Shown piece after piece: positions 10,948 through 14,226 of a stretch of 64,000 nt of DNA. The stretch is from Bacteroidota bacterium (GTDB lineage: Bacteria; Bacteroidota; Ignavibacteria; OLB7): NCBI GenBank assembly GCA_018266795.1, contig JAFDZV010000033.1, forward strand, positions 62,001-126,000, written 5' to 3'. The notes below the pieces were generated by a model. It was given only the letters and a program-made list of their open reading frames with translations, was not told the DNA's origin and made no database searches. The first letter of the stretch is position 1, and every line of letters starts with the position of its first letter. A program made the position numbers and the translations under genes.

Positions 10948-12465
10948 ATGAGCGAGACCCTTGCCAACGGGATGATTGCCCAGTTGAAGCCCCAGAAGAA
11001 TCAACTCGACGAGCGGGGGCTGCTCCGCTATGGGAAAATGTTGATCGACGGTGAGTGGGTTGACGCCCTCTCCGGGAAGACCTTCGAGAGCCGGTATCCC
11101 GGCAGCGGCGAGGTGATTGCGCACGTTGCTGCGGGGGATGCTGCGGATGTGGATCGTGCAGTGAAGGCGGCCCAGCGCGCCTTCACCGATGGGGATTATC
11201 GCAAGATGAACGGCGCCGATCGCGGGAGGCTTCTCTGGAATATCGCCGACCTGATGGAACGGCACATCGAGGAGCTGGCGGAACTGGAGACGCTGGACAA
11301 CGGCAAGCCGCTGGTGGAATCGTTGAAGGTTGATCTGCCGCAATCGATCGCCTGCTTCCGCTACTATGCGGGATGGGCCGGAAAGACTACCGGCGAGACG
11401 ATCGAAACGAATGCTCGCGCCAACGCGTTCGCCTACACATTGCGCGAGCCGCTGGGTGTCTGCGGCCAGATCATCCCGTGGAACTTCCCGATCCAGATGG
11501 CCGCGTGGAAACTGGCTCCGGCGATTGCCTGCGGCAACACCGTGGTGATCAAGCCGGCCGAGCAGACCTCTGTCTCGCTGCTGCGTCTCGGCGAGCTGAT
11601 GATGGAGGCGGGGCTGCCGAAGGGTGTGGTCAACATCGTGACCGGTTTCGGTGAGACCGCGGGCGCGGCGTTGGTTGCGCATCCCGGCGTGGAGAAAATT
11701 GCGTTCACCGGCTCCGTGGAGGTTGGGAAGCTTATCATGCGCCACGCCGCCGGGACGCTGAAGAAGGTGACGCTGGAACTGGGAGGCAAGTCGCCGAACA
11801 TCGTGTTCGCCGATTCGAATCTGGAGCTGGCGGCGAAGGTGGCGTTGATGGGAATCTTCTTCAACCAGGGGCAGATGTGCACGGCCGGCAGCCGCATCCT
11901 GATTGAAAGCTCCGCACGCGAACAGTTCCTGGAGGTGCTTGCCGGCCGCGCGGCGAAGATGGCGGTTGGCGACCCGTTGGATCCGAAGACGCGGATGGGC
12001 TCGCTGGTAAGCGAGGAACAGATGAATCGCGTTCTCGGCTACGTGGAGAAGGGAAAAGCGGAGGGAGCGCAGCTTCTCTCCGGCGGCGGCCGTGTCGGCA
12101 CACAGGGATATTTCGTGACGCCGACCGTGTTCGACAACGTCTCCAACGATATGACGATTGCGCGGGAGGAGATCTTCGGTCCGGTGGCCTCCGTGATCAC
12201 GTTCAACGATGCGGAGGAGGCGCTTCGCATCGCCAACGACAGTGCGTTCGGGCTCGCGTCCGCCGTATGGACAACGGACCTGAAGAAGGCGCTCACGTTC
12301 GCGCGCGGCATCAAGGCCGGCACCGTCTGGGTGAACACCTACAACATGACGGACAACGCGCTGCCGTTCGGCGGCTACAAGGATTCCGGCTTCGGCCGCG
12401 AACTTGGATCGGCCGCGCTCGATGTCTATACGCAGACCAAGACGGTCTACATCGATCTCAACTAG
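10948..12465 (+). CDS. NAD(P)-dependent aldehyde dehydrogenase
   Basis: The length of 505 aa is normal for the ALDH superfamily. Clear motifs include GQIIPWNFPIQM (cofactor site, ~173-184), KPAEQTS, FTGSVEVGK, and the catalytic Glu277 in LELGGKSPNIVF. The catalytic Cys311 lies in FFNQGQMCTAGSR. Near the C-terminus are EEIFGPVASV and a PFGGYKDSGFGRE motif. It oxidises an aldehyde to the acid in the cytoplasm; the class is closest to retinal/betaine/general ALDHs, and the substrate cannot be told. The gene is monocistronic, with a bidirectional-looking hairpin about 300 bases downstream. The sequence TGTATCTTGGG lies 68 bases upstream of the start. Confidence 0.95.
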   Translation: MSETLANGMIAQLKPQKNQLDERGLLRYGKMLIDGEWVDALSGKTFESRYPGSGEVIAHVAAGDAADVDRAVKAAQRAFTDGDYRKMNGADRGRLLWNIADLMERHIEELAELETLDNGKPLVESLKVDLPQSIACFRYYAGWAGKTTGETIETNARANAFAYTLREPLGVCGQIIPWNFPIQMAAWKLAPAIACGNTVVIKPAEQTSVSLLRLGELMMEAGLPKGVVNIVTGFGETAGAALVAHPGVEKIAFTGSVEVGKLIMRHAAGTLKKVTLELGGKSPNIVFADSNLELAAKVALMGIFFNQGQMCTAGSRILIESSAREQFLEVLAGRAAKMAVGDPLDPKTRMGSLVSEEQMNRVLGYVEKGKAEGAQLLSGGGRVGTQGYFVTPTVFDNVSNDMTIAREEIFGPVASVITFNDAEEALRIANDSAFGLASAVWTTDLKKALTFARGIKAGTVWVNTYNMTDNALPFGGYKDSGFGRELGSAALDVYTQTKTVYIDLN

Positions 12466-12869: not shown

Positions 12870-13430
12870 TCATCGTGCGGAATATGCACCTCCGGCGCGC
12901 AGTACCTCCTGCCACAACGCGGCGGCGTTGCGTGCATCGTCGATGGCGCGGTGGCGATTCAGCGGTGCCGGAAGCTCCGCGATCTCCAGCGCGCGTTCCA
13001 TGTTGACCCCCCGGCCAACGAAGGCGTCGCTGAATGCCGGCTTGATGTTGATGTACTCGTCGTCGAACGGATACGGCAGGCGATGGAATGCACATGCCTG
13101 GCGCAGCAGATAGCGGTCGAAGGCGCCCCATGAACAGAGCGTGCACTGCGCCGGCTCCCTGAGCCACGCCACGAAGTTCGCGAGAGCTTCCGGGAAGGCC
13201 GGAGCGGTGTCCACGTCCTGCTGGGTAATCGATGTGAGCCGCGTACAGTACTGGCTGAGCCGTGGATAGCGTGTAGGGCGCACAAATGTCTGGAACTCGT
13301 CGAGGATGCGTCTGGTGGAGTATTCCATGCGGATGCATCCGAACTCAATGATCTCTTCGTCGCTGCGGCGATTCGCCTCCGGCCAGCAGGTGGCTTCGAA
13401 GTCGAGAACGATGTAGTACTGTTTTGCGAT
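12870..13430 (-). CDS. 3'-5' exonuclease, DEDDh family, apparent AUC start
   Basis: The protein would have 186 aa. It belongs to the DnaQ-like DEDDh fold (ERI-1/KapD-like group). ExoI is seen as LDFEATCW (Asp10, Glu12), followed by EIIEFG. ExoII surrounds WGAFDRYLL, and ExoIII is HRAIDDARNAA near the C-terminus. The reading frame for the essential ExoI block has no ATG, GTG or TTG before it: the upstream stop is at about 13443. The likely start is ATC at 13430, six bases after GGGAGAG. The first ATG in frame (13328) would remove the catalytic Asp and Glu. It may be a true AUC start, a mutation or a sequencing error. Substrate may be RNA or DNA. Confidence 0.8.
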   Translation of the reverse strand: MAKQYYIVLDFEATCWPEANRRSDEEIIEFGCIRMEYSTRRILDEFQTFVRPTRYPRLSQYCTRLTSITQQDVDTAPAFPEALANFVAWLREPAQCTLCSWGAFDRYLLRQACAFHRLPYPFDDEYINIKPAFSDAFVGRGVNMERALEIAELPAPLNRHRAIDDARNAAALWQEVLRAGGAYSAR

Positions 13431-13662
13431 AGGGCTCTCCCGATTTCAGTATGATCGGGCAAGTTAGAAAGGGCTGTCTCGCTGCGAAAGCACATTGACA
13501 TGCCGCATCGCCGAGGAAACGATGTGTCACGAGAAGCGGTGTGGGAAGGGCGGCGCGCCTGCTGCGAAGATTTCGTGGCATTTCTTCGGTGCGAGGTTTT
13601 GAAATGCAGGGGCTTTGGTAGTAGATTCTTTCAATGTTTGCAGATGAACCAGGAGGAATACG

Positions 13663-14226
13663 ATGGCAGTAACCGGCTTAGGTACAATGCGCGAAGAGCT
13701 TCAGGGCACTTCGGTGGACGCATTGTTCCAGCGTGGTGAGGCGGACCGATTACTGGCGCGCCCGAAGGCGCAGGAGGACTTGGAGAAGATTGCGAAGTCC
13801 GAACGAAGTGATCATCGCTTGCGTGTTCTTGCACACGAATTGCTCGTGATGTCCGGCAAAAACCCCGATCAGCGGATGGTTCGCATTTATTGCGAGGCCA
13901 TATCCGGCGCGTTCATGCACAACTGGTGGGCGCTGCCGGGGCATCATCTCGGCAAGTTCGGCAGCACGCTCGTGCGGTTCGGTGAAGCCGCTCTGCCATA
14001 TCTTCTGAAAGAGATGGATGATCCGGCGCTTCTCACGTATCTGGGGCCGGATGCCCCGGTCAACAGGGAATACCGGTACTGTGTGGGCGATCTCGCGCTG
14101 TATCTGGCGTCGCAGATCGGTGGGTTCGAATTCTCCGACGCCAAGGAGCCGGAAGTGCGCGAGGCGGCCCGGATGCAGTACATGAAAGACCTCTCGGAGA
14201 AACTCGCAAACGTCAAGCGCAAGTAG
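13663..14226 (+). CDS. Hypothetical protein, 187 aa
   Basis: I do not recognise this protein. It has a strong ribosome binding site (AGGAGG, seven bases before the ATG), which supports the start. The sequence is rich in Leu, Glu, Lys and Ala and appears almost wholly alpha-helical, with segments such as LRVLAHELLVMSG and GEAALPYLLKEMDDP that look like HEAT/ARM-type helical pairs. It has no signal peptide or transmembrane segment, so it should be cytoplasmic. A Lys-rich tail (LANVKRK) ends it. It is divergent from the exonuclease and followed by 490 bases without a gene. Confidence 0.75.
   Translation: MAVTGLGTMREELQGTSVDALFQRGEADRLLARPKAQEDLEKIAKSERSDHRLRVLAHELLVMSGKNPDQRMVRIYCEAISGAFMHNWWALPGHHLGKFGSTLVRFGEAALPYLLKEMDDPALLTYLGPDAPVNREYRYCVGDLALYLASQIGGFEFSDAKEPEVREAARMQYMKDLSEKLANVKRK

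Follow-up and report, generated by a model that had tools for sequence, protein, structure and literature searches.

The exonuclease gene and its start region

The window analysed here, a single stretch of DNA 64,000 nucleotides in length, carries on its minus strand an open reading frame (12870–13430) of 186 amino acids, counted from an AUC codon and closed by a TGA stop, which encodes a 3'–5' exonuclease of the DEDDh (ERI1/KapD-type) family. DEDDh enzymes are recognised by the motifs DxE, D and HxxxxD, and alignment places all three in this protein (as DFE, the D of SWGAFD, and HRAIDD), with DxE kept in all eight aligned sequences, the window's included. Together with a score of 84.9 bits against the RNase_T model (PF00929, cut-off 24), this upholds the initial annotation of the gene as a DEDDh exonuclease. 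Sequence similarity to ERI1 (PDB 1w0h) spans residues 4–180 (E = 2.5e-20), and the best NCBIfam model is that of KapD (PRK07748), against which the protein scores 95.9 bits, below the equivalog cut-off of 169 and thus outside that equivalog. KapD of B. subtilis is described as a 3'-exoribonuclease (PMC11736430), and RNA is therefore the likely substrate of the window enzyme, which shares with KapD and ERI1 the family and the DEDDh 3'–5' exonuclease type; it differs in its score below the KapD cut-off, in having no known sporulation context and in its start codon.

Read on the minus strand, the beginning of the frame runs TGA (13448–13446) AAT CGG GAG AGC CCT ATC (13430–13428) GCA AAA CAG TAC TAC ATC (13412–13410) GTT CTC GAC TTC GAA, so that five codons separate the in-frame TGA from the proposed AUC start. 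The first in-frame ATG (13326–13328) lies 3' of catalytic motif I, and a protein begun there would have 152 amino acids and lack that motif. The initial annotation had stated that the catalytic block LDFEATCW (13406–13383) is in frame only upstream of this ATG, and that ATG, GTG and TTG are missing between the upstream stop and the block; reading of the frame bears out both statements and adds CTG, ATT and ATA to the codons absent from that interval. The only near-cognate starts before LDFEATCW in this frame are ATC 13430 and a second ATC at codon 7 (13410–13412). A possible Shine-Dalgarno sequence, GGGAGAG (13435–13441), precedes the first of these. It had been placed six bases from the ATC; the ATC is indeed there but four bases (CCCT) intervene, and it is the GGAG core of the motif that ends six bases before it.

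Upstream lies a divergent gene on the plus strand (13663–14226, 187 amino acids) with no Pfam match at E 0.001, and on the other side an aldehyde dehydrogenase gene (10948–12465). No promoter-like site was found on the minus strand in 13380–13700, where there was one on the plus strand; no Rfam family reached its gathering score in 13300–13800, and no tRNA was found in the 64-kb window.

Conservation of the AUC codon and the N-terminal segment

We compared the gene across a sample of five genomes of the family, the window's own (G000) included, in which the genus is represented by two, G000 and Chlorobiota bacterium RYN_334 (G001; contig JAQBOZ010000007, exonuclease locus L022). All five carry the exonuclease gene, and they account for five of the seven matches found when 391 genomes of the class were searched at E 1e-15. 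The G000 and RYN_334 proteins are 69% identical, and the same two genes, aldehyde dehydrogenase and the 13663–14226 gene, flank the exonuclease in the same arrangement in RYN_334. The product of the 13663–14226 gene also adjoins the exonuclease in G002, G003 and G004, with 56–73% identity across the four relatives.

At the codon corresponding to 13430, RYN_334 also reads ATC, so that the AUC is conserved in the one other sampled genome of the genus but in none of the three other family genomes (0/3). These three have a standard start one aligned residue upstream of the AUC column, ATG in G002 and G004 and GTG in G003. In G004 and G003 no other standard codon occurs from the upstream stop to the start of the conserved protein; G002 has more in-frame ATG and TTG codons upstream, and its start was placed by alignment. 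An in-frame ATG likewise lies shortly before the conserved block in the more distant G056, in G341 and in all five cyanobacterial loci (L023–L027). The proposed start gives four residues before the YY column, within the range of 3–8 seen in the eight aligned sequences. From the two genomes of the genus, the AUC seems to have replaced a standard start at the level of the genus. ATC is the commonest isoleucine codon in the sample taken from the window's genome (982/1258), and the identity of the codon in RYN_334 is therefore weaker evidence than its position.

The codons that follow evolve as coding sequence. Between G000 and RYN_334, codons 1–35 show 7 differences at first, 3 at second and 20 at third positions, and codons 2–35 give pN 0.16 and pS 0.80, compared to pN 0.21 and pS 0.71 for codons 36–150 (simple Nei-Gojobori proportions, uncorrected, with synonymous sites near saturation). 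The segment between the AUC and the first ATG is thus kept as protein, under purifying selection, in both lineages. Upstream of the ATC the protein match extends for at most four residues, none of them identical (RESP vs QQPA), and the DNA of the two genomes aligns only with many gaps. Taken with the shared codon in RYN_334 and the family starts one residue upstream, the constraint on the N-terminal segment favours initiation at the AUC, as the initial annotation had proposed, and on this comparative evidence the AUC start is probably a real and kept feature of the gene.

Upstream sequence and competing starts

The Shine-Dalgarno evidence is less helpful. The 16S rRNA of RYN_334 ends in GGCTGGATCACCTCCTTTC, an intact anti-Shine-Dalgarno sequence, and the G000 copy is interrupted by a contig end. 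Duplexes between the exonuclease leader and the anti-Shine-Dalgarno sequence reach –7.4 kcal/mol in G000, against a median of –2.8 in 34 G000 genes, but only –0.1 kcal/mol in RYN_334, where the GGGAGAG motif is not conserved; in G000 the GGG of the motif is predicted to pair in a small hairpin. Among the 34 pairs of G000 and RYN_334 genes with an aligned standard start that made up the sample, leaders reaching –5 kcal/mol numbered 5/34 and 7/34 respectively, compared to 13.7% of mononucleotide-shuffled G000 leaders. Use of Shine-Dalgarno sequences is thus weak in the sampled genes and barely above the shuffled background. GGGAGAG had been read as marking the expected position of a start; because the motif is absent from RYN_334 and such signals are weak in these genomes, it lends poor support to the AUC.

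There is no standard start before the conserved protein in G000. In RYN_334 the frame before the ATC is open for 65 codons and contains no in-frame ATG, but does contain a single standard codon. This is a GTG, 16 codons upstream of the ATC, and a GGAGG that ends 13 nt before it would form a duplex of –10.0 kcal/mol. The 171 bases before the RYN_334 ATC match at least 50 places in that genome, itself included, from a search in which 40 of 219 first-look candidates were scored. Among the 49 other matches listed, 44 end at or before query base 150, that is, at least 21 bases before the ATC; five extend past base 150, and one reaches base 169. A core resembling CAAGCCCCGGAGGGGCGCAAT...GTGCGCGGGGCATCGCCCCGCGCAC is common to the copies; a search of 400 kb of RYN_334 for the 13-base core CCCCGGAGGGGCG gave 16 occurrences. 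In the exonuclease copy the GTG opens the 5' arm of the hairpin, and a GTG stands at the same position of the repeat in 10 of the 14 other copies displayed, which lie in both orientations along the contig. We infer from these matches that the GTG/GGAGG region is an inserted intergenic repeat rather than a ribosome-binding site, and the GTG is an unlikely start because it lies inside the dispersed hairpin repeat. Neither the 13-base core nor, by blastn, any match to the RYN_334 leader turned up in 186 kb of G000, and the two genomes may differ in this repeat.

Two further observations concern the repeat itself. The exonuclease copy occupies L022:2830–3000 (C36:442317–442487 of RYN_334), with the core AGCCCCGGAGGGGCG ... 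GTGCGCGGGGCATCGCCCCGCGCAC. Of the matches listed, the one that reaches query base 169 is a copy lying some 2 kb downstream of the exonuclease gene (C36:444682–444752, minus strand), which shares most of the 14-base leader stretch AATCCAACAGCCTG adjoining the ATC.

Initiation further upstream would have to use the GTG in RYN_334 and, in G000, a frameshift or stop readthrough from another frame. The GTG with its GGAGG, together with the out-of-frame ATG reading frames (from 13501 and 13581) that overlap the region in G000, offers some basis for this. It has to be set against the position of the GTG and GGAGG within a repeat found in at least 50 places and the absence of the repeat's core from the G000 sequence searched; in addition, the upstream regions of the two genomes have no common reading frame and the G000 TGA stands just five codons before the ATC. 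Such an upstream start is therefore improbable. Initiation at ATG 13328 would yield a truncated protein lacking catalytic motif I; this is the first standard codon, its methionine is conserved in RYN_334, and it would be the choice of a gene finder restricted to ATG, GTG and TTG. However, codons 2–35 are as constrained as the remainder of the gene, DFE or DLE is kept within them, and the DxE motif is present in 8/8 aligned sequences, and we regard a start at this ATG as highly improbable.

The second in-frame AUC (13412) is likewise ATC in both genomes and could in principle initiate in place of the first. It lies 18 nt further from the Shine-Dalgarno-like motif than AUC 13430, inside YYIVLDFE and adjoining motif I; its use would omit AKQYY, a segment in which RYN_334 keeps A, K, Y and Y, and would start the protein later than in any of the seven aligned relatives. 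A start there is highly improbable. The ATC might also be an ATG corrupted by sequencing or assembly, the window belonging to an assembly of 71 contigs. In RYN_334, however, this codon is also ATC, even with differences at 20 of the first 35 third positions; because of this agreement, the start positions in the family and the purifying selection on the segment, an error in the window alone is very unlikely.

Non-canonical starts, proposed in this lineage and known elsewhere

How often such starts arise was surveyed by comparing stop-to-stop reading frames of G000 (C26 and C6, 288 kb) with those of RYN_334 (C36 and C19:1–140000, 633 kb). The 98 pairs retained were reciprocal with at least 45% identity, pairs below 45% being left out, and were flagged if at least five identical columns preceded the first standard start in one genome. 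Seven of the 98 pairs were flagged, and two were judged real on reading the alignments, infC, the classical example of such a start, and the exonuclease. The other five were dropped, their matches merely running past a shared start codon. The infC pair was flagged through RYN_334 only, G000 infC having standard codons further upstream, and the exonuclease through G000 only, owing to the RYN_334 GTG. An earlier survey of part of these sequences (186 kb vs 400 kb) yielded 66 pairs, 51 of which reached at least 45% identity; five were flagged and one, the exonuclease, was judged real. The survey provides a lower bound, as it misses genes in which both genomes have a standard codon upstream that goes unused. 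As only two of 98 pairs were judged real, the AUC is more than a chance observation.

The infC gene, which encodes IF3, is present in one copy in each of the five family genomes (L030–L034). Its apparent start is ATA in G000, RYN_334, G003 and G004 and ATT in G002. The frame holds no standard codon ahead of it in RYN_334 and G002; G000, G003 and G004 have a TTG or GTG further upstream, and there the start was placed by comparison. The G000 infC frame is open far upstream, to 327 amino acids in all. Because infC apparently starts at AUA or AUU in all five genomes, starts of this non-G class are plausible in the lineage. The exonuclease resembles infC in having an AUN start other than AUG; infC differs in autoregulating, since its product is IF3, a direct loop that the exonuclease does not have.

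Starts of this kind are known elsewhere. In the sources consulted, AUC appears in a list of non-canonical bacterial starts on which IF3 acts (PMC4611024), and another source, citing a further paper, puts it in the group of seven codons that initiate most strongly in E. coli (PMC12350097, which also mentions the E. coli frame CDS177 with a putative AUC start); infC is given as starting with ATT in E. coli and with ATC in Streptomyces, and the limitation of start prediction confined to ATG, GTG and TTG is noted (PMC5472188). In vitro, more IF3 is described as lowering AUC use when the initiator anticodon is mismatched (AUC/UAU, AUC/AAU; PMC10158994). The Streptomyces sigR gene has a GTC start repressed by IF3 (PMC5472188), and is thus like the exonuclease in its non-canonical start; it differs in its codon, its extensive ribosome-binding site and its product, a sigma factor rather than a nuclease, and its start was shown experimentally, that of the exonuclease being proposed from sequence. 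The Staphylococcus starts of ccpN (AUA) and cvfC1 (AUU) are likewise conserved, yielding in poor medium about 10% of the output of AUG and, for ccpN, up to 30% in rich medium (PMC13009471), but have an extended Shine-Dalgarno sequence, whereas the similar motif of the exonuclease is not conserved. An ATC start was also inferred by alignment with relatives for the L12ae gene of Staphylothermus marinus (PMC2678158); this is a ribosomal protein gene of an archaeon, and the passage concerned describes no conservation of the codon. Further instances are a possibly broken Neisseria gene with an ATC start (PMC10210955) and an artificial AUC mutant of B. subtilis rny.

In the open-licence literature searched, reports on ATC start codons mostly concern mitochondrial genes and those on AUC start codons mostly eukaryotes, and few natural AUC starts outside infC were found, namely the archaeal gene and the putative E. 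coli frame. Among the matches listed, none described an exonuclease with a conserved AUC start. Non-canonical starts are known, AUC included (Streptomyces infC), and the exonuclease would be a new member of a small AUC-start class.

The locus very probably encodes an intact ERI1/KapD-type DEDDh 3'–5' exoribonuclease that is initiated at AUC (13430–13428) by the ordinary initiator tRNA, with a low output that probably rises when IF3 is scarce. The initiator tRNA would read the AUC as a start and insert fMet as the first residue of an enzyme presumed to act on RNA. The codon would be a weak start, with its third-base mismatch and its membership of a class that IF3 discriminates against; because it is weak, little exonuclease would be made, and IF3 sensitivity would probably let the level rise as the factor becomes limiting.

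A more speculative possibility, which we put forward tentatively, is that the AUC is a genus-specific regulatory device, in which an ancestral AUG or GUG was replaced and the replacement kept, and synthesis of the exoribonuclease rises as IF3 falls. RNA decay would then be coupled through IF3 to the state of translation initiation. The device would operate with no conserved Shine-Dalgarno sequence and, infC apart, only very few genes of G000 and RYN_334, the exonuclease among them, would be controlled by IF3. Poly(A) polymerase acts at RNA 3' ends, and its E. coli gene, pcnB, reportedly has an AUU start that holds expression low (Binns and Masters, 2002). The likeness, an RNA 3'-end enzyme kept low by a non-G start, would be an independent parallel; pcnB encodes another enzyme of opposite chemistry and uses AUU rather than AUC, in unrelated bacteria.

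Start prediction limited to ATG, GTG and TTG would cut the exonuclease at an internal methionine, with the loss of catalytic motif I. Should the start prove regulatory, this genus would represent another lineage that throttles an RNA 3'-end enzyme by means of a codon against which IF3 discriminates.
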